A stretch of DNA of 48,791 nucleotides from Deltaproteobacteria bacterium RBG_16_64_85. Lineage in GTDB: Bacteria; Desulfobacterota; Deferrimicrobia; Deferrimicrobiales; Deferrimicrobiaceae. A program made the position numbers and the translations under genes. The stretch spans positions 1 through 48,791 of the forward strand of contig MGQW01000014.1 of the NCBI GenBank assembly GCA_001798885.1, in the 5' to 3' direction. Positions 1-17,275 of the stretch are shown in pieces (the stretch's first letter is position 1; each line of letters starts with the position of its first letter). The notes beneath the pieces were generated by a model. The model saw nothing but the letters and a program-made list of their open reading frames with translations. It was not told the origin of the DNA and did no database searches.

Positions 1-3000
1 GGAGACGCGGTCGAGACCCGCCACCGCGACTGGCTGAAGAACCACGTGCGGCGGATCGTGCACGGGACCCCGAAGCCTTCCCTTACGACCCTTCTCACCG
101 ACGACCAGCAAGGCAGCATTCCGGAGTTCCTCCTCCGCCACGCGCGACGGAAGGGCGTCGGGACCGGGCAGCTCGAGAGCATCGAGCGGCAGAGACGGGT
201 CATCGACCGGATCCTTACGGACTTCGAGCAACCCTACGGGCGCGACGAGAAGCTCATCGTCTACGATCGCCTCGCAAAGCTGGGCCTTCTTTCGAGGGTG
301 CCCCTGGTTACGGGCCGGGATATCCTCTGGGACGACGCGATTAGGCGGACGGAGGAGAAGCTCAAGGCCAGGGGCAAGGACATCGACGAGTTCGCGGCGG
401 TCGAGATGGGCGGCGGGGAGCCCGCGATGCTCAGCTACTCCAGCGGTTCCACCGGCCAGCCCAAGGGGATCATCTCCCTCATCGGCTCGATCGTTTCCGG
501 AGCCCAGACCATGTTCAACTCCTTCGGGCTATCGCCCCACGAGATCCACCACACGTCCACGGACTACGGATGGATCGTGGGCCCCGCGTACGCCCTGTGG
601 TTCCCGATGATGGAAGGCCGCAGCTTCATCCTCCAGAGCTTCGTGCCCACCCCACGGAGACTTGCCCAGGTGGTCGAGGACTACGGGGCCTCTTTCCTCA
701 AAGCCGGGTCTCCGATCTACGAGGCGATGTCGAAGGTCGACGGGCTCTTCGACCCCGGCAAGGGGGGGTTCGACGTCCGATCCCTGCAGCGGGAGGGGGC
801 CCCGGGAATCTGCGGTTGCGCGGCCCCCTACTCCTACCCTGCCCACGCCCGGATCCAGGCTGTGCTGGGCGACGTGGCGATCAACTCGCTGTGGCGCACC
901 GAGGATTTCGGGTCCCAGCACGCGACGTTCAAGCGCCGCCCGAGCGTCGAGCGCCGTTGCGTCGAGACCTACCGTGATGAGCTCCTCGGGCTCGCCGGGG
1001 CCCGCGAGCCCGAGGAGGTGGTGGCCCGGGTGCGGACCCCGATTGAGATGGATATCGAGCACCCCGAAATCCTCCCGCTGCCGTGGGTGAACCCGGTGAT
1101 CGCCGACCGCCTGGAGGACGAGGAGGGCAACCGGGTCGAGTCGCCCAGCGAGGTGACCGAGGCTCTCATCACCGCTTCGGGGCGAAGCCGCAAGGCGGTG
1201 ATCGGGCAGCTGCTCTACCGGGGCGCCCAGCCGCACCGGATGGCGTGGCTGATGGGAAGCAACGAGGGCCGGGGGGAGCCCGCCCGGCCCGACGCGAAAC
1301 TCACCGCGGCGAAGTATTACAACCATGCGTTCGCCCCCGACTGGCCGGGGAAGGGAAGGGAGGGCCGGCGCCTGGCTCACGACGGCGGCGACTCGGCCTA
1401 CTGGGTGCGGGTGCTCTACGACCCCGGGAGCCCGGAGGACGCGCTGATCCTCGACGGCCCGGAAGACCCGGTGACCCCGAGGACCTTCTACGCATCTGGG
1501 CGTTCCGGAAACATCGCCAATGTCAACGGCCACCTGGTCAACGAGACGATGTACGAGAACGCGCTGAACGAGCACACCCGGTTCTTCCGGAAAGTCGGCG
1601 TGACCTTCATCCATCACCCCACCAAGGACCGGACGCCGGTCGTCGTGGCGGCCCTGCAGCCGGGAGTCCAGCCCGGCCAGGAGCTGATCGATCTCGTCCA
1701 GATGACGATCAACCAGAAGCTCAACCCGCAAGTCAAGCCGGAGGTCCAGGACATCGTCTTCCTGGTGGCCGAGGCGGCGGGCTTCGAAGGGGAAGAGACC
1801 TTCCTGCCGATGACCCTCACGGCGAAGATCATGTACGAGCTGATCAAGTTCTATGCCGCGAAGCCCCAGGAAACTCTCAAGCGGATGCAGCAGGCCCTGG
1901 TTCCCGACGAAGTCCGGGCAACGATCCGCGGGGGCGACGCCGAGTTCTTCCGGGCCAACCCGCTTTTCCAGGGGATGCCCAACCTCGACGGGCTGAAGGT
2001 CAAGGGGACGCTGATCAACATCCTGGACCGGGTCATCGCCTCCCGCGAGGGGGACGAGGCGGTGACCGCCCCGTTCCGTCCCGACGCACCCGTGGCCGAC
2101 TCCTACGCGGACATCCCCGACCGGCTCGTCAAGCGCTTGGGGGACCCGCCGCTCCGCGCCGGGTTCGACTCGGTCCCGCCCTACCAGGAGGCGTACGGGA
2201 TCGCCCGCAACGAGGACGGGATGAGCATCGTGCACCGGGACCCGGCCCTGGGATTCCGGAAGTTCGTGCGCCCCACGCCTTGCCTCTCGGCCGGGCAGGC
2301 CCTGGTCCAGATCCTTTACGCCGGCGCCACCTACAACGTCATCAACGGAATCACTTCCGACCCGGTCGACGTGCTGGGCGACAAGGACCACCACGTGCTC
2401 GGCGACGCGGCCGTCGGGCAGATCGTGGGGCTCTCCCCCGAGGCGGAAGCAGAGGGGCGCCTCGCCATCGGCCAATTGGTGCTCGTCGACCCGATGGTGT
2501 TCAACCGCCAGGCGCCCACCGTGACCCTGGATGCCCAGCGCGAGGGCCATATCGGCGGGTACCAGGGCGGCCGGGACCAGGCCACCCTGCAGGCGTTCGC
2601 GGCTTTCGACACGGGCAGCCTCATCGAGCTTCCGGTGGACATGCCCCTTCCCCTGGCGGCGACCCTGATCCTGAACGGTCCCACCGTGGAGCACGCCCTG
2701 TTTTCTCCGGCCAAGCTCGACCTTACCGCGGGGGACGTGCTCCTGGCCCATGGCGGCAGCGGCCACACCGGGTCCCTGGCGATCGACATGGCGGAGGCCC
2801 TGGGGATCCCGGTCCTGACCTACGTCTTCGACGAGGGAGAGGCGGACTTCGTCCGCAGCCGTCATCCCCATGCGGACCTTTATTTCATACTGCGAAGGGA
2901 CCACGCGGAAGCCTTGCGAGCGGCCCCGACAGACGACCCCGAAGAACTGGCGAAGTGGCAACAGGCGTTGGATCGCCTGGTGGCGTCGATTCCCGCGAGG

Positions 3001-5223
3001 TACCGGCCCACGAAGGTCATGCAGAACGCCGGGCGGGGCCTGCAGGCGGCGGACTTCCGGCTGCTGCGGCCAAGCGCGCAGGGCAGCCGCACCGCCTGGT
3101 TCTCGGGCGCCTTCGGTCTTTACGGAACGTTCAACGGGTACGACGCGCGGCTGACGGCCGCCGAGGCCCTCGGGCCGGACGGGGCGGACGTATCGCTCGG
3201 GGAGAACGTGCTGGTCCACTACGGCGCCAATGCCGACGCTTCGGCCCTGGACGAGCCGGCCACCTCGGCCATCGTCGAGGCCGCCCGCCTCGGGGCCCGG
3301 GTGACGGTGCTGGCCGAGACCCAGGAGCAGCAAAACGTTCTGCTCCGGCGGGAGGACGTCACCGCGCGCTTCGGCAAGACCCGGATCCAGAACGTCGAGG
3401 CCCTGCGGGAAGGGGAAGGCAAGAAGAAGCTGCTTTGGCCCGAGCACATGCCCGACGTGGACGAAGGGCGCTTCGCCCCGGGGCGGGAGGCCCACGAGAG
3501 CTGGCCCGGCAGGGACGCCCAGACCCGCTTCGCAACCGAGACCGTGAGCGTGGTCAAGAACGCCTTGGCGCCGTACAACACCAACCACTCGGGCTCATGG
3601 GACGCAATCTGGGACAGCGGCCGCCGGGACCACCTGGCGCTCAACGTCGCCCTCCTGACCGAGCAGACCGGCCGTGTGGTATACGGTGAGACCACCTCTC
3701 ATCAGACGCTCACCTTCCACCTCGCCCAGGGGTGGATGCAGCAGCGGACGATCCTCGTGCCGGCAGACCCCAAAGATCTCGACGCAGCCGCCTCGGTCCG
3801 GGAGAAGATCGTCCGCATGGCCGGCTCCCACATGTACGAGCCTCACGAGGCAAAAGCGTTCCGGGACAAGATCGACAGGGGGCTCTATCATCTCCACGGG
3901 CCGGACCGGATTCTTGACGCCGACGAGATCCCGCGCGGCTTCAGCGACCAGTTCCACGGCCGGGCCCCCGGCTCCACCGCCTACCGGATGACGACGAACC
4001 TGGACTCCGTCCGCTCCGAGCGCGACCTGTTGCTGAGCCAGGGAGTCCGGATCGCCGAAGAGCTCTCGCTGATGCGGCTTCTGCTCCACCCCATCGATGC
4101 GGACGCATCGATCGCCACGGTGGAATTCAAGCTCAACCAGCCCAAGGGCAGCAACACCCTGCGCAACGCCGACCTGCACTGGTTCCGGGGCGACGCGGTC
4201 AAGCAGCTCCGGCTTCTCTTCCATCGGATCCGGGAAGAGGGGACGGTCCGGGCCGTGGTGCTGACCGCCGAAGGTACCCGGGCGTTCGTTCCGGGTCAGA
4301 ACAGCGACGAGCTCTCCGTGCTGGACGACGAGCAGATCACCGAGCTCGCCGCTCTGGCGCAGGAAACGATGAGCACCATCGAGGGCTTCAAGATCCCGGT
4401 CGTCCTGAACCTCAACGGCCTGGCCCTGGGCGGCGGAGCCGAGCTCGTGGCCGCCGCGCACTACGTGGTCGCCTCCCGGGTCGAGCGCATCTACCTGGGC
4501 CAGCCCGAGACCGTCATCAACCTCATACCCGGTTTCGGCGGCACCCAGCGCCTGGTCCGGCTGATGGCGGGGAAGTCCCGGCTAGGGCCCAGGAGCGGGC
4601 TCCTCTTCGCGGTCGATACGATCCTGACCGGGCAGCCGATGACCGTGGAGGAGGCCTACGCGCACGGGCTGGTCTCGGAGATCGTCCCCTCGAACTCCCT
4701 GGCCCGGGCGTACCGACTCGCCGCGGGCCACGCACTGGGCACCGACGACACCCTTCGCCGCGCCATGGAGGAGCGCCACCGGGCCGTGCAGCGCTGGGAG
4801 GAGCCTTTGACCGACGAGGACACGGGCCGCCCCGTCGACCCGTCGATTCTCGCCGAGGACGAGCACGTCAAGGGGTACCTCCGCCAAGCCGAGACCGTGG
4901 GGCGGAGAGGCGTGATCTTGCGCAACGCCCTGGACCTGATCCTCCGGAACATCACGGAGGGGGTCCAGTACGGCGAGGAGGCCTACAACTTCGGACAGGC
5001 GGGGAGCAGCAGCGAGTTCCGGCAGTCGATCGTCCGGTTCCGCAACCGCGCGCCGCTTCCGCGGCCTCCCCGCCGGCCGACGACGGAACGGGAACGCGCA
5101 AGGATCCGTCAACTGGCGGACGAGTCGATTTCCGCGGCAAGGCTGCGCGTGGCCGAACCATCATGGGAACTCGCCGCGTCCGACCCGCTGTCTTTTCCTG
5201 TTCGTCGGATCAGCGCACGGTAA
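1..5223 (+). CDS. Propionyl-CoA-synthase-like trimodular enzyme (ligase-reductase-hydratase), 5' end missing
   Basis: The reading frame is open from base 1, so the N-terminus lies outside the window; an internal GTG at 46 gives 1725 residues and is used for numbering. Module 1 is an AMP-forming acyl-CoA ligase: A3 motif YSSGSTGQPKG near residue 131, an A8-like segment GRSGNIANVNGH, and the A10 lysine K594 in LTAKIMYE. Module 2 (about 720-1330) is an MDR/crotonyl-CoA-reductase-like enoyl-CoA reductase with GGSGHTGS near 903 and a second Rossmann-like half, both paralleled in propionyl-CoA synthase (PCS). Module 3 (about 1370-1690) is a crotonase with both catalytic glutamates (E1466 in GGGAEL, E1488 in GQPE). 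PCS converts 3-hydroxypropionate to propionyl-CoA and keeps acrylyl-CoA enclosed. The module order here is ligase-reductase-hydratase, whereas I recall ligase-hydratase-reductase in Chloroflexus. The substrate is not proven; another short hydroxy acid is possible. Confidence 0.85.
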   Translation, partial: GDAVETRHRDWLKNHVRRIVHGTPKPSLTTLLTDDQQGSIPEFLLRHARRKGVGTGQLESIERQRRVIDRILTDFEQPYGRDEKLIVYDRLAKLGLLSRVPLVTGRDILWDDAIRRTEEKLKARGKDIDEFAAVEMGGGEPAMLSYSSGSTGQPKGIISLIGSIVSGAQTMFNSFGLSPHEIHHTSTDYGWIVGPAYALWFPMMEGRSFILQSFVPTPRRLAQVVEDYGASFLKAGSPIYEAMSKVDGLFDPGKGGFDVRSLQREGAPGICGCAAPYSYPAHARIQAVLGDVAINSLWRTEDFGSQHATFKRRPSVERRCVETYRDELLGLAGAREPEEVVARVRTPIEMDIEHPEILPLPWVNPVIADRLEDEEGNRVESPSEVTEALITASGRSRKAVIGQLLYRGAQPHRMAWLMGSNEGRGEPARPDAKLTAAKYYNHAFAPDWPGKGREGRRLAHDGGDSAYWVRVLYDPGSPEDALILDGPEDPVTPRTFYASGRSGNIANVNGHLVNETMYENALNEHTRFFRKVGVTFIHHPTKDRTPVVVAALQPGVQPGQELIDLVQMTINQKLNPQVKPEVQDIVFLVAEAAGFEGEETFLPMTLTAKIMYELIKFYAAKPQETLKRMQQALVPDEVRATIRGGDAEFFRANPLFQGMPNLDGLKVKGTLINILDRVIASREGDEAVTAPFRPDAPVADSYADIPDRLVKRLGDPPLRAGFDSVPPYQEAYGIARNEDGMSIVHRDPALGFRKFVRPTPCLSAGQALVQILYAGATYNVINGITSDPVDVLGDKDHHVLGDAAVGQIVGLSPEAEAEGRLAIGQLVLVDPMVFNRQAPTVTLDAQREGHIGGYQGGRDQATLQAFAAFDTGSLIELPVDMPLPLAATLILNGPTVEHALFSPAKLDLTAGDVLLAHGGSGHTGSLAIDMAEALGIPVLTYVFDEGEADFVRSRHPHADLYFILRRDHAEALRAAPTDDPEELAKWQQALDRLVASIPARYRPTKVMQNAGRGLQAADFRLLRPSAQGSRTAWFSGAFGLYGTFNGYDARLTAAEALGPDGADVSLGENVLVHYGANADASALDEPATSAIVEAARLGARVTVLAETQEQQNVLLRREDVTARFGKTRIQNVEALREGEGKKKLLWPEHMPDVDEGRFAPGREAHESWPGRDAQTRFATETVSVVKNALAPYNTNHSGSWDAIWDSGRRDHLALNVALLTEQTGRVVYGETTSHQTLTFHLAQGWMQQRTILVPADPKDLDAAASVREKIVRMAGSHMYEPHEAKAFRDKIDRGLYHLHGPDRILDADEIPRGFSDQFHGRAPGSTAYRMTTNLDSVRSERDLLLSQGVRIAEELSLMRLLLHPIDADASIATVEFKLNQPKGSNTLRNADLHWFRGDAVKQLRLLFHRIREEGTVRAVVLTAEGTRAFVPGQNSDELSVLDDEQITELAALAQETMSTIEGFKIPVVLNLNGLALGGGAELVAAAHYVVASRVERIYLGQPETVINLIPGFGGTQRLVRLMAGKSRLGPRSGLLFAVDTILTGQPMTVEEAYAHGLVSEIVPSNSLARAYRLAAGHALGTDDTLRRAMEERHRAVQRWEEPLTDEDTGRPVDPSILAEDEHVKGYLRQAETVGRRGVILRNALDLILRNITEGVQYGEEAYNFGQAGSSSEFRQSIVRFRNRAPLPRPPRRPTTERERARIRQLADESISAARLRVAEPSWELAASDPLSFPVRRISAR

Positions 5224-7357: not shown

Positions 7358-7840
7358 ATGGCGAGCGAGCCGAAGCCGGTCTCTGCCTCCCGGCTGGTGC
7401 TGGCGCAGGTGATGACGCCGCTGGACGCAAATGTCTCCGGGAACGTCCACGGCGGCAACATCATGAAACTTGCGGACACGGCGGCAGGGGTCGTGGCGAT
7501 CCGGCACTCCGGGCGAAATTGCGTCACCGCGACGGTCGACCGGTTCGACTTCCACGCCCCCGTGTACGTCGGGAACCTGGTGACCCTCAAGGCCTCCTTG
7601 AATTATGTCGGGCGCACATCGATGGAGATCGGCGTCCGCGTGGAAGCGGAGGACCTGCGGACCGGAAGGAGGACGCACACAAACTCGTGCTACATCACGA
7701 TGGTGGCGCTCGATGCGGACGGGAAGCCCGCCGAGGTCCCCCGCCTCCTCCTGGAAACCGACGAGGACCGGCGCCGGCACGAAAAGGCCACGTTGCGAGT
7801 CCTGGACCGGAGGAAGTCCAAGCGGTCCGGAAGCCCTTGA
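7358..7840 (+). CDS. Acyl-CoA thioesterase, YciA/BACH hot-dog family
   Basis: The 160-residue protein has a single hot-dog fold. It begins with the characteristic LAQVMTPLDANVSGNVHGG segment, in which the central helix region GGNIMKLADTAAGVVA carries the catalytic Asp of the YciA type. It continues with CVTATVDRFDFHAPVYVG and the NYVGRTSMEIGV strand. Family members hydrolyse acyl-CoA to the free acid and CoA in the cytoplasm, with broad chain-length range. It lies seven bases after the OmpA-like gene and is convergent with glutamate dehydrogenase, 21 bases away. Chain-length preference cannot be read from the sequence. Confidence 0.85.
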   Translation: MASEPKPVSASRLVLAQVMTPLDANVSGNVHGGNIMKLADTAAGVVAIRHSGRNCVTATVDRFDFHAPVYVGNLVTLKASLNYVGRTSMEIGVRVEAEDLRTGRRTHTNSCYITMVALDADGKPAEVPRLLLETDEDRRRHEKATLRVLDRRKSKRSGSP

Positions 7841-12358: not shown

Positions 12359-13504
12359 ATGGGAGAGGAAGGAAACGGAAACAACGCCGCCTCGAAGGAC
12401 TCCCGCCGGAAGTGGGCACTGGGGATCTTCTTCGTCGCCTCCGTGACGACGGTTGTCTCCGGCGCATTCTACTGGTGGTGGCGTCAGACCCACATCGCCA
12501 CCGACGACGCCTTCGTCGAGGGGAGGATCCACCCCGTTGCCGCCCGTATCCAGGGGACGGTAGCCGAGGTGCTCGTGGGCGACAATCAGCCGGTGAAGAA
12601 AGGACAGCCGCTCGTCCGGATCGACCTGGAGCCGTACGCCGTCCGGGTATCCGCCGCCGCCTCCGCCCTCTCGGCCGCTTCGGCAGACCTGAAGGCCTCC
12701 CGCTCGGACACCAAGGCCGCCCAGGAGGATATTGCGGCAGCGCGGGCCCATCTCGTCCAGATGCGGGCGGCGGTCGAGGCGGCCCGGGCGAAGGGGGCAC
12801 TCGCCGAAGCGCGGCTCGCCCAGGCCGACCGGGATGCGGAGCGCGCAAGGAACCTCTTCGAGCGGCATTCCATCAGCCGCGAGAGGAACGAGAAGGCCCA
12901 GACGGAAAGCCTGGTGGCAAAAGCCCAGGGCGACGTTGCGCGGGAGGAACTGCGTCTCGCGGAGGCTGCCCTCCCCGCGCAGGAAGCCCTGATCGCCCAA
13001 CGGATGGCGGTCCTCGGCCAGCGGGAGGCCCGGATCGGCCAGCGGGGCGCCGACCTCAAACAAAAGGAATCCACTCTCGCCGAGGCGAAGCTTTACCAGG
13101 GATACACCGAGGTCGTCGCCCCCGCGGATGGGTACATCACCCGGAAAAACGTCGAAGCCGGCCAAGTCGTCTCCCCGGGCCAGCTGCTGCTCGCGGTCGC
13201 CTCGCTCTCCGACGTCTGGGTGGTGGCCAACTACAAGGAAACCCAGATCGAGAAGATCCGCCCCGGCCTGCAGGCCAAGGTCCGCGTGGACACCTATCCC
13301 GGCAAGGAGTTCAAGGGAAAGGTGGAGAGCATCATGGCGGGGACCGGCTCCGCCTTCTCCCTCTTCCCGCCGGAAAACGCCACCGGGAACTACGTCAAGG
13401 TCGTGCAGCGGGTGCCGGTGAAGATCATCCTCGAGAAGGGGGAGGACCCGGACCATCTCCTCCGGATCGGGATGTCCGTCGAACCCACGGTCCTCATCCA
13501 GTAG
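12359..13504 (+). CDS. emrA: EmrA/HlyD-type membrane fusion protein
   Basis: The 381-residue protein has one N-terminal transmembrane helix (about 20-42), a biotinyl/lipoyl-like half starting at THIATDDAFVEGRIHPVAARI, a long alanine/arginine/glutamate-rich helical hairpin (about 90-240), the second lipoyl half with VVAPADGYITRKNVEAGQVV, and a beta-barrel domain with WVVANYKETQIEKIRPGLQA. This is the periplasmic adaptor of a tripartite efflux pump. It is followed by an EmrB-type MFS transporter gene and, further on, a TolC-type gene, so the three likely form an EmrAB-TolC system. The substrate is unknown. Confidence 0.88.
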   Translation: MGEEGNGNNAASKDSRRKWALGIFFVASVTTVVSGAFYWWWRQTHIATDDAFVEGRIHPVAARIQGTVAEVLVGDNQPVKKGQPLVRIDLEPYAVRVSAAASALSAASADLKASRSDTKAAQEDIAAARAHLVQMRAAVEAARAKGALAEARLAQADRDAERARNLFERHSISRERNEKAQTESLVAKAQGDVAREELRLAEAALPAQEALIAQRMAVLGQREARIGQRGADLKQKESTLAEAKLYQGYTEVVAPADGYITRKNVEAGQVVSPGQLLLAVASLSDVWVVANYKETQIEKIRPGLQAKVRVDTYPGKEFKGKVESIMAGTGSAFSLFPPENATGNYVKVVQRVPVKIILEKGEDPDHLLRIGMSVEPTVLIQ

Positions 13505-13665
13505 TGTCCCGCCTCGTAAATAGGCTGAGCACCGAGAACGCCGATGCGCCGCGCCGGCAAGGCGCGCGACCGAGGCGTACTGGGAGAGTACGGTGAGGGA
13601 GCGCAACGCAGCCGGAGAGGATGCAGCGGCGTTCGAATGCCAGGTTATTTGCGAGACGGGGCACT
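13503..13665. repeat. About 163-bp hairpin-forming, MITE-like repeat
   Basis: The sequence fills the emrA-emrB gap. Its ends form an imperfect terminal inverted repeat: 13503-13526 pairs with 13642-13665 in about 19 of 24 positions (core CCTCGTAAATA versus CTCGCAAATA). A second nested pair is GAACGCCGATGC (13536-13547) with GCAGCGGCGTTC (13623-13634), matching 11 of 12. At the centre GTACT (13577-13581) and AGTAC (13587-13591) flank a 5-base loop. There is no coding potential of its own. It resembles short non-autonomous or REP-like elements dispersed in deltaproteobacterial genomes. A structured RNA between co-transcribed genes is the alternative. No second copy was seen in the window. Confidence 0.6.
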
Positions 13666-13671
13666 AAACGC

Positions 13672-15270
13672 ATGAACGGAGGGAACCGGTTCGGCAACGC
13701 GGTCGGAGCGATGCGCGAGAACAAGTGGATCGTCGCCGTCACCGTGATGCTCCCCACGCTGATCGAGATCATCGACATCAGCGTGGCCAACGTCTCCCTC
13801 GACCACATCCGCGGGTCGCTCTCCGCGGGGATCGACGAGGCGGGGTGGGTCCTGACCTCCTACCTCGTCTCGAACGCCATCATCATCCCGATGACGGGAT
13901 GGTTCGCCCGCTCCTTCGGCCGGAAACGGTACCTCCTCTTCTCCATTTTCCTCTTCACCGCCGCCTCCTTCCTGTGCGGGTCCTCCACGAGCCTGGGGAT
14001 GCTCGTCTTCTTCCGCGTCCTGCAGGGGATCGGCGGGGGGGCGCTCCAGCCGCTCTCGCAGGCGATCCTCCTGGAGTCGTTCCCGCCGAAAGAGCACGGG
14101 GTCGCCATGGCCATCTTCGGCATCGGGATCATGTTCGGGCCGATCATGGGTCCCCTCATGGGCGGCTACATCACGGATACCTTGTCCTGGAGATGGATCT
14201 TCTACGTCAACCTCCCGATCGGGCTGCTCGCCGTCTTCATGGTGACGCTCTTCATCCACGACCCGCACTACCTGAAGCGGACGGAGAAAGTGAAGGTGGA
14301 CCTGTGGGGGATCGCCCTTCTGACCGTGGGAATCGGGGCCCTCCAGATCGTCCTGGACAAGGGACAGCGGGAAGACTGGTTCCAGTCCGACTTCATCCTT
14401 GCGCTCTCGGCGGTCGCGGTGCTCGCCCTCGCCCTCTTCGTCATCGTCGAGCTGTACATCGCGGAACATCCCATCGTCGACCTGCGAGCGTTCCGGAACG
14501 TGTCCTTCAGCACCGGCAACGTGGTGATGTTCATCGCATTTTTCAACCTGCTCGGGAGCATCGTGCTGCTGCCGCTCTACGCGCAGCTCCTCCTGGGGTA
14601 CACGGCGTTCCTTGCCGGGCTCGTGCTGTCGCCCGGCGGGGTCGCAACCCTTCTCGTCATGCCGATCGTGGGAAAGCTCATCGGCAAGCAAAACCCCAAG
14701 TATCTTCTGACATTCGGGATCATCGTGTGCGCCTTCTCCACCTACGCCATGTCCCGCTTCAGCCTCGGGGCGGACTTCTCCGCGCTCATGTGGCCGAGGA
14801 TCTACCTGGGGATCGGGATGGGTTGCCTGTTCATCCCCCTCACCACCCTGACGCTTTCCTCGATCCCACGGCCCCAGATGGGGAACGCCACCTCCATCTA
14901 CAACCTGCTGCGCAACCTCGGAGGCTCCTTCGGCGTGGCGTTCGCGACGACGATGTTCGTCCATCGCGGCCAGCTCCACCAGAGCCACCTGGCGGAGCAC
15001 CTCACCCGGTTCGACCGGACCTTCACGACCGCCGTCGAGTGGGGGAAAGCCTTCCTCGCGAGGCGGGGCGTCCCCGAAATCGCCGCCGAGCCCACCGCGA
15101 TCAAGGCGATTTACGCCCAAGCGGTCCGCCAGGCGACGGCCCTGGGGTTCAACGACGCCTTCTTCGTCCTCTCCATCCTCATGGCGTGCGTTCTCCCGCT
15201 GGTTCTCCTCCTCCGGCGGCCCGCTCACCAGGGAGGGCCACCGGGCGCGGGGGGGGACGCTCCTGTTTGA
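13672..15270 (+). CDS. emrB: EmrB-type DHA2 (14-TM) multidrug MFS transporter
   Basis: The ATG at 13672 gives 532 residues; no good ribosome-binding site is visible and an ATG at 13711 is possible. The protein has the 14-helix DHA2 layout: TVMLPTLIEIIDISVANVSL in TM1 (motif D1), WVLTSYLVSNAIIIPMTGWF, the motif-A loop RSFGRKRYLL, and motif C in TM5 (GIGIMFGPIMGPLMGG). It is the proton-driven inner-membrane component that works with an EmrA adaptor and a TolC channel. A hairpin repeat separates it from emrA. The frame extends upstream to an ATG inside that repeat, which is probably not used. Confidence 0.88.
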   Translation: MNGGNRFGNAVGAMRENKWIVAVTVMLPTLIEIIDISVANVSLDHIRGSLSAGIDEAGWVLTSYLVSNAIIIPMTGWFARSFGRKRYLLFSIFLFTAASFLCGSSTSLGMLVFFRVLQGIGGGALQPLSQAILLESFPPKEHGVAMAIFGIGIMFGPIMGPLMGGYITDTLSWRWIFYVNLPIGLLAVFMVTLFIHDPHYLKRTEKVKVDLWGIALLTVGIGALQIVLDKGQREDWFQSDFILALSAVAVLALALFVIVELYIAEHPIVDLRAFRNVSFSTGNVVMFIAFFNLLGSIVLLPLYAQLLLGYTAFLAGLVLSPGGVATLLVMPIVGKLIGKQNPKYLLTFGIIVCAFSTYAMSRFSLGADFSALMWPRIYLGIGMGCLFIPLTTLTLSSIPRPQMGNATSIYNLLRNLGGSFGVAFATTMFVHRGQLHQSHLAEHLTRFDRTFTTAVEWGKAFLARRGVPEIAAEPTAIKAIYAQAVRQATALGFNDAFFVLSILMACVLPLVLLLRRPAHQGGPPGAGGDAPV

Positions 15271-15292
15271 CACCGGCTTTTTGCGGTATACT
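15267..15292 (+). promoter_or_regulatory. Promoter-like pair before the YbaK-like gene
   Basis: A perfect TTGACA (15267-15272, overlapping the emrB stop) and TATACT (15287-15292) are separated by only 14 bases, shorter than the usual 16-18. An A-rich stretch follows. The YbaK-like ATG is 80 bases downstream. Short spacing makes the call uncertain. Confidence 0.35.
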
Positions 15293-15371
15293 TAAAAAAA
15301 CTACCGGCCTGTCGTTCGTCCACTCCTCTGCCTGGCGAAAGAAGCCGCGAAATAGCGGCGGGAGGAACCCC

Positions 15372-15854
15372 ATGAGCATCCCGGAAAAGCTGGCCCGGTA
15401 CCTCGAAGAGCGCAAGATCCCCTTCAAGGCCACGACGCATCCGGAAGCGTTCACCGCCCAGCAGTCGGCGCAGGCCGCCCACGTGCCCGGCCGGGCCTTC
15501 GCCAAGTCGGTGATGGTGAACGTGGACGGGAAGATCTGGATGGCGGTCGTCCCGGCGACGGAGCGCGTGGACCTCGCGCGGATGCAGAAATGCCTGGGGG
15601 CCAAGAAGGCCCGGCTTTCCAGCGAGGCCGAATTTTCGCCCCTGTTCGTCGACTGCGACCTCGGGGCGATGCCGGTCTTCGGCTCGCTGTACGGCGTGCC
15701 GGTACTGCTGTCGCACGAACTGACGGAGAACGAGGAGATTGCGTTCACGGCGGGTACCCACAGGGACATCGTCCGTCTGCGGGTGAGTGACTTCCTCACC
15801 GCCGAGAAGCCCAAGGTATGCGAGCGGGAGGCGATCCTGGCCGGCACGAACTGA
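15372..15854 (+). CDS. YbaK/ProX-type aminoacyl-tRNA deacylase-like protein
   Basis: The ATG at 15372 follows GGAGG and gives 160 residues. The single YbaK/EbsC domain shows YLEERKIPFKATTHPEAFT at the start, the invariant lysine of the family in GRAFAKSVMVNV, and the later strands GAMPVFGSLYGVPVLLS and FTAGTHRDIVRL. Family members hydrolyse mischarged tRNAs in trans (for example Cys- or Ala-tRNAPro). Some stand-alone members have unknown substrates, so the exact tRNA is not assigned. The gene lies between emrB and tolC and has its own promoter-like sequence, so it may be only a positional insert in the efflux cluster. Confidence 0.82.
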   Translation: MSIPEKLARYLEERKIPFKATTHPEAFTAQQSAQAAHVPGRAFAKSVMVNVDGKIWMAVVPATERVDLARMQKCLGAKKARLSSEAEFSPLFVDCDLGAMPVFGSLYGVPVLLSHELTENEEIAFTAGTHRDIVRLRVSDFLTAEKPKVCEREAILAGTN

Positions 15855-15997
15855 TCCCCGCACTGGCCCCGTTCCCGTACTACACGCCGCCATTTTTCTG
15901 TTATTCTTCGTGTGTCCGGCCCCTCGACACTCCCCTTGGCGCCTTTCTGTAATCCTCACCCGGGGACGGGCGCGAAACGATCTGGAGGTGGAAGATC

Positions 15998-17275
15998 ATG
16001 AAACCCTGCCTGAGGATCGCGGTCATCACTGCGGCGGCGTTTCTGATGCTGCAGGCCTGGCTTCCGCCAGGCCTCGCCGACAATGTGTCGTGGGACCTCG
16101 ACCAGGTCGTGCAGATCGCCCTCGCCCGCCACCCCCTGGTCAGCCAGGCCGATGCGGATACCCAGGCGGCAGCGGCGCGAAAAGGACAGGCGCAGTCGTC
16201 CTACTACCCGCAGATCGGCCTCTCCACCGGATACGCCAGGTCCCGGGCGTTCTCTCCCACCCTCCAACAAAGCCTCACGTCCTCCTCCGAGTTCCTCCAG
16301 GGCAATCTCTCCCAGATCCTCACCGATTTCGGCCGCACCGGCGCCGCGGTAGGCCGGGCCGAGGCGCTGTTTTCGTCCTCGAGGGAAACGGGGAGATCCG
16401 TCCGCGAGGATGTCGCTTTCAGTGCAAAGGTCGGCTATTACAACGTCCTGCGCGCGCAGCGGATCCTCACCGTCAGCCAGGAGACCGTGAAGCAGCGCGA
16501 ATCCTTATCCAGGCAGGCGCAGGCCTTCTACGAGGCGGGGATCCGGGCGCGGATCGACGTCGCCCGGGCACAGGCCAACCTGTTCCAGGCGCGCGCGGAT
16601 CTTACCGGCGCCGAGAACGATCTCCGGGTCGCGCGGATCACGCTCCTCAACCGGATGGGGGTCGACGGGCCCAGGGGCTTCGAGCTGAAGGACACGCTCG
16701 CCACCGAATCCGTCCCCGGCACGCTGGAGGAGTGGGTCAAGGAAGCGGAAGCCGGCCGGCCGGAGCTCCGGGCTCTGCTGGAGCGGGAACGTGCAGCGGA
16801 CATGGCCCTTCGCGCCGCCCGGGCGGGGAACTACCCGGTCCTCACGGGCAACGGTGGATACGGGTACGCTGCCGAAGACATGCCCCTCGAGCAGAACTAT
16901 ATCGTCACCGTCCAGCTTTCGGTCCCCATCTTCACCGGGTTCCTCACCCGCCAGCAGGTGGCGGAGGCGCGGGCGAACCTCGATTCGGCGCGCTATGCCG
17001 TGACCGACTTCCGGAGGCTGGTCCGCCTCCAGGTCGAGCAGGCGGCCCTCTCCGTCCGCGCCGCCTCCGAGCGCAGCGACGCGCGCCGGAAAGAGAAAGA
17101 GGCCTCCGAGGAGAACCTGCGGCTGGCCACGGGGCGTTACGAGGTGGGCGCGGGGGACATCATCGAGATGATCGACGCCCAGGTGCAGATGGCCCGCTCG
17201 GACACCGACATGATCGACGCTCTGTACGATACCAGCATCTCCATCACTTCGCTGCTGCGCGCAATGGGACGGTAG
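15998..17275 (+). CDS. tolC: TolC-family outer-membrane efflux protein
   Basis: The 425-residue protein starts after GGAGGTGG and has a signal peptide (hydrophobic AVITAAAFLMLQAWLPPGLA). The mature part has the two homologous halves of the TolC/OEP fold: long helices rich in Ala/Arg/Gln (VVQIALARHPLVSQADADTQ early; ARANLDSARYAV late), with short strand regions such as YYPQIGLSTGYARS and NYIVTVQLSVPIFTGF. It forms the trimeric exit duct through the outer membrane. The likely partner is the upstream EmrA/EmrB pair; the RND pump at 36466-40729 has no OEP gene next to it and could share this one. Confidence 0.88.
   Translation: MKPCLRIAVITAAAFLMLQAWLPPGLADNVSWDLDQVVQIALARHPLVSQADADTQAAAARKGQAQSSYYPQIGLSTGYARSRAFSPTLQQSLTSSSEFLQGNLSQILTDFGRTGAAVGRAEALFSSSRETGRSVREDVAFSAKVGYYNVLRAQRILTVSQETVKQRESLSRQAQAFYEAGIRARIDVARAQANLFQARADLTGAENDLRVARITLLNRMGVDGPRGFELKDTLATESVPGTLEEWVKEAEAGRPELRALLERERAADMALRAARAGNYPVLTGNGGYGYAAEDMPLEQNYIVTVQLSVPIFTGFLTRQQVAEARANLDSARYAVTDFRRLVRLQVEQAALSVRAASERSDARRKEKEASEENLRLATGRYEVGAGDIIEMIDAQVQMARSDTDMIDALYDTSISITSLLRAMGR

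Follow-up and report, generated by a model that had tools for sequence, protein, structure and literature searches.

Propionyl-CoA synthase (PCS) is a textbook example of how fusing enzymes can shut in a toxic intermediate. The Erythrobacter NAP1 enzyme (PDB 6EQO) is a chain of 1850 residues with the module order ligase-hydratase-reductase, and acrylyl-CoA is held within a chamber of the protein (PMC10176485). This canonical order is independently grounded, because the haloarchaeal PCS of Natrinema (L042) aligns with 6EQO from end to end in a single collinear stretch of 2,088 bits, and the reductase of the Chloroflexus PCS is its C-terminal domain (PMC4029986).

The window analysed here, a stretch of 48,791 nucleotides, opens with a 1,740-codon reading frame whose left end runs off the contig. 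The first letter of the window is also that of the contig (G000:C14), so the gene is 5′-truncated and its start is missing (Table 1). By phmmer against the PDB, the best match overall is 6EQO (E = 4e-76), which covers all three module types. The aligned stretches, however, are out of sequence. Query residues 140–305 (ligase) align with residues 433–596 of the 6EQO chain, 716–1255 (reductase) with 1238–1762, and 1384–1693 (hydratase and its C-terminal extension) with 908–1212. The modules therefore run ligase-reductase-hydratase here, against ligase-hydratase-reductase in 6EQO; the swapped order, which an earlier note on this DNA had read from the letters and compared with the Chloroflexus arrangement, is borne out. 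Scored against the Erythrobacter PCS, the Natrinema enzyme reaches 2,088 bits and the window protein 260.

At least five further assemblies (G011, G001, G010, G015 and G300) share this order, and relatives in G024 and G003 agree with it as far as their contigs show; loci L027, L028, L029, L030 and L059 likewise depart from full-length collinearity with PCS. An assembly artefact is ruled out by this recurrence in several independent genomes. Circular permutation was also considered; three modules allow two cyclic orders, and a simple rotation is excluded because ligase-reductase-hydratase is the other one. We found no published statement of a swapped PCS module order in the literature searched.

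Table 1. Coordinates of the PCS-like gene and its parts (window positions) and of the second megaenzyme (positions on the contigs or loci named)
Feature	Coordinates	Strand	Remarks
PCS-like megaenzyme gene, 5′-truncated	1..5223	+	1,740 aa present, ~777 aa missing relative to L029/L027
ACS-type acyl-CoA ligase module, C-terminal two thirds	1..1900	+	window aa 1 to ~633; 6EQO match, PF00501
Ligase P-loop-like motif YSSGSTGQPKG	436..468	+	from aa 146
Ligase motif INSLWRTED	880..906	+	from aa 294
Ligase A8/hinge region SGRSGNIANVNGH	1495..1533	+	hinge Asp replaced
Ligase A10 motif PMTLTAK	1807..1827	+	catalytic lysine is Lys609
Ligase-reductase linker	1901..2139	+	~80-100 aa, kept within family, no family match; dN/dS 0.15-0.46
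PCS-type long MDR enoyl-CoA reductase	2140..3933	+	aa 714-1311; second half with WPEHMPD and GSHMYEP
Reductase dinucleotide-binding motif HGGSGHTG	2749..2772	+	GGSGHTG from ~aa 918
Enoyl-CoA hydratase module with PCS-type C-terminal extension	4099..5079	+	aa 1367-1693
Hydratase first catalytic Glu codon	4441..4443	+	Glu1481 in LALGGGAEL
Hydratase second catalytic Glu codon	4507..4509	+	Glu1503 in GQPETVINLIPG
C-terminal tail, poorly conserved	5080..5220	+	dN/dS 0.47-0.72, two pairs including the window
Second megaenzyme	G000:C7:18473-26325 (L065:4474-12326); L063:5396-13096		

Complete relatives are about 2,520 residues long and carry a fourth module, giving the order N-terminal crotonase-ligase-reductase-hydratase. 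By comparison with them, about 777 residues are absent from the window protein, comprising the N-terminal crotonase, a linker and the start of the ligase; this part, which is not visible in the window, is new here. The window's own N-terminal part was looked for on the other contigs of its genome (G000) and not found. Judging from the relatives, the window's protein presumably starts with a crotonase as well. Over about 315 residues, with the helical C-terminal part included, this module resembles 3-hydroxyisobutyryl-CoA hydrolase (HIBCH). Its match to Pfam ECH_2 spans the module, and NCBIfam PRK05617 scores 89 bits, well under the curated cut-off of 274. Unlike HIBCH, it is fused to a ligase and lacks the catalytic Asp; the Asp of PExxxGLxPD is Gly, or Tyr in L028, which leaves a single catalytic Glu (in PEV) in place of the Glu/Asp pair. 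Nor does it have the two Glu of a hydratase, since the first is Gly in the relatives (GSALGL/GSALGI). Possible roles for such a single-Glu crotonase include a proton shuttle or isomerase, an altered thioesterase or a structural wall. AlphaFold models, drawn from alignments of 2–3 close sequences only, reached a pLDDT of only 35 for this module and 32 for the reductase-hydratase part, values too low for the models to be used.

The family shares with PCS (Chloroflexus, Erythrobacter NAP1 and Natrinema/Natribaculum/Natronococcus) an ACS-type ligase, a Glu/Glu hydratase with its extension and a long MDR reductase in one chain. It differs in module order, in its extra N-terminal crotonase and linkers, in length (about 2,520 against about 1,850 residues) and in a changed ligase hinge, and its identity to PCS is low. 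By its parts the protein would work like a PCS, yet we do not class it as one because its module order is different.

All three activities had been described as present with intact key residues, and for the most part this stands: every module is there, both hydratase glutamates are kept, and the ligase core motifs and the A10 lysine are invariant in the family. The exception is the ligase hinge, where GRSGN (residues 500–504) replaces the GRxDD of ACS and the GRSDE of PCS, with Gly-Asn in place of Asp. The ligase is also the more divergent module, as had been thought, and its profile prefers plain acetyl-CoA synthetase (132 bits, over several stretches) to 6EQO (79 bits). Part of the PCS-specific ligase insertion appears to be shared: its first ~60 residues are collinear and score 27.8, whereas the highest of 100 column shuffles reached 20.0. 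The Trp of INSLWRTED, lying before the (R)TE, matches Trp414 of acetyl-CoA synthetase, a residue associated with short acyl (C2–C3) substrates.

Over about 600 residues, the reductase scores 149 bits against the Natrinema PCS, 114 against a stand-alone Haladaptatus reductase, 55–59 against crotonyl-CoA carboxylase/reductase (CCR) and 41–46 against a second megaenzyme of the lineage. In a maximum-likelihood tree, a split with 100/97 support sets the family reductases, PCS and the Haladaptatus reductase apart from CCR and the second megaenzyme. The Haladaptatus reductase groups with the haloarchaeal PCS reductases (85/74), and the family reductase branches outside this group. For the C-terminal hydratase, the tree gives moderate support (85/86) to a grouping with PCS hydratases and not with the second megaenzyme. 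The module trees include haloarchaeal PCS but neither Chloroflexus nor Erythrobacter sequences, which limits placement, as do the long branches (2.2–2.4 changes per site in reductase and hydratase). Both modules are thus PCS-type by tree, including the second half of the reductase, but the close resemblance claimed for them was overstated, since identity to PCS is about 25% for the reductase and 32–35% for the hydratase (25–35% overall).

The Haladaptatus reductase (WP_277506101, 632 residues, L044:5902-7800) belongs to the same long MDR family as that of the window protein. Unlike the latter, it is unfused; hydratases and an acetate-CoA ligase family protein are encoded next to it by genes of their own. 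The plasmid region that holds them all (L044:1191-8569) also encodes a BCCT transporter and is apparently a parts list for an unfused PCS.

The second megaenzyme comprises a PCS-like long MDR, an ECH, an unknown domain and two SDR units, without a ligase. It is encoded by one ORF of about 2,600 residues in G011, G005, G014 and G003, and by two overlapping ORFs in the window's genome, G010 and G006. Its MDR-ECH part occurs in 16 of the 26 genomes of the class, and the megaenzyme is found in most genomes that have the PCS-like gene. Like the window protein, it places the reductase before the hydratase and has a long MDR with a second half; unlike it, it has SDR units, no ligase and a reductase that groups with CCR. 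That grouping, together with the low score, rules out derivation of the family's reductase-hydratase pair from the second megaenzyme, in spite of the common order. The best PDB matches of the tandem SDR are 8HJW and 8HI4, named SDR in the PDB, with scores not clearly above those of generic SDRs; we take both to be bifunctional malonyl-CoA reductases.

Purifying selection acts on every module. For the ligase, reductase and C-terminal hydratase, dN/dS is 0.11–0.27 when the window or L027 is one of the pair; the C-terminal hydratase rises to 0.29 against G015, which has a disturbed frame, and the N-terminal crotonase lies at 0.22–0.33. Counting contig-end fragments and a remnant in G020, the PCS-like gene occurs in 9 of the 26 genomes of the class. 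Relatives from the same family are MAGs (G011, G001, G010, G015, G024 and G003), and G300 belongs to another family. A scan of genome contigs, made with family-specific peptides that permuted relatives in distant phyla could escape, returned five Deltaproteobacteria MAG loci, most of them named for groundwater or soil samples. In a draw of 395 genomes from the phylum, G300 alone carried the gene outside the class, and it was absent from all 11 other genomes of G300's order; the G300 copy is therefore either a recent transfer or a binning contamination. There, a corrinoid protein, a URO-D-type methyltransferase and an FGGY kinase are encoded ahead of the PCS-like gene in the same orientation (L059:8416-11783), possibly in one operon, and a broken transposase-like stretch lies upstream. 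The frame is shifted near query residues 1580–1592 in G015 (C56:19497-19907) and in the G020 remnant (C9:93156-94405). The frame changes differ, and either assembly errors or independent decay would explain them.

On balance, we think it somewhat probable that the PCS-like enzyme makes propionyl-CoA from 3-hydroxypropionate, a reading in which substrate, direction, cofactor and channelling are all deduced from sequence. The ligase would convert free 3-hydroxypropionate, ATP and CoA to 3-hydroxypropionyl-CoA, the C-terminal hydratase would remove water to give acrylyl-CoA, and the reductase would reduce this with NADPH to propionyl-CoA, the reactive acrylyl-CoA being kept inside a single protein. 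Propionyl-CoA could then pass to a carboxylase and on to methylmalonyl-CoA mutase. The window's genome encodes such a mutase (C15:37765-39303) close to a carboxyltransferase (C15:41484-42935), and haloarchaeal PCS genes likewise have methylmalonyl-CoA mutase genes as neighbours, joined at one locus by an acyl-CoA carboxylase. Counting against this reading are the hinge change, the ligase profile's preference for plain acetyl-CoA synthetase, the low identity and long branches, the fourth module and the lack of a conserved operon: the neighbours of the gene differ among genomes, and none ties it consistently to a source of 3-hydroxypropionate.

A less probable reading is that the same chemistry acts on a branched or C4 3-hydroxy acid, for example taking 3-hydroxyisobutyrate to isobutyryl-CoA by way of toxic methacrylyl-CoA, or 3-hydroxybutyrate to butyryl-CoA. 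That the crotonase best matches ECH_2 and PRK05617 over nearly its full length would fit such a substrate, as would a branched-chain-amino-acid-type ABC transporter divergently upstream of the gene in G010 and the binding protein of such a transporter near it in G015. However, the replaced HIBCH Asp and the score far under the cut-off weaken the first point, and the second loses force in that the transporter type is unspecific and none is seen beside the gene in G011 or G300. The ligase, moreover, retains the Trp associated with C2–C3 acids. The altered hinge can instead be taken to mean that the ligase is impaired and that the protein is a CoA-ester hydratase/reductase scaffold in a longer reductive or biosynthetic route, working with the second megaenzyme or two-gene pair that the lineage possesses. 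We regard this as improbable, given that ligase dN/dS (0.11–0.25) is comparable to the low values of the other modules, that the core motifs and A10 lysine do not vary, and that G024 has the PCS-like gene with no detectable second megaenzyme. The fragments and shifted frames in G020 and G015 could be read as signs of a functionless gene, decaying or mis-assembled. This is very hard to reconcile with intact frames of about 2,520 residues or long open fragments in the window's genome, G011, G001, G010 and G300, all in the same order and under purifying selection, although the enzyme may be dispensable in those relatives where it is broken.

Two origins of the protein are possible. Since the family reductase lies outside the group of haloarchaeal PCS and Haladaptatus reductases, the protein could descend from an early split from PCS followed by rearrangement, or from an independent fusion. 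We further speculate, as a rather unlikely extension, that malonyl-CoA is turned into propionyl-CoA in this lineage by a 3-hydroxypropionate route of its own, made of two giants (or a giant and a gene pair), MDR-ECH-SDR-SDR and ECH-ligase-MDR-ECH, assembled independently of the Chloroflexus enzymes and amounting to a second solution to acrylyl-CoA sequestration. If the SDR part of the second megaenzyme is a malonyl-CoA reductase, the two proteins would between them cover the whole route.

A PCS relative that departs in module order and gains a module offers a test of whether the chamber needs a given chain order or only contacts between modules, and of whether such enclosure evolved repeatedly. 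It would also extend 3-hydroxypropionate chemistry to a lineage reported to be without its key enzymes: these were not identified in a genome study of MBNT15 (PMC9386147), whose genome is probably of the same lineage as the window (MBNT15/Deferrimicrobia). Searches that demand the canonical full-length arrangement could miss permuted PCS-like enzymes.

Elsewhere in the window, a small 4HBT-type acyl-CoA thioesterase gene (7358-7840) follows the PCS-like gene at a distance of about 2 kb, with no sign of linkage to it. Further along (12359-17275), genes for an HlyD-type adaptor, an MFS pump and an outer-membrane efflux protein stand in a row, apparently encoding a tripartite efflux pump.
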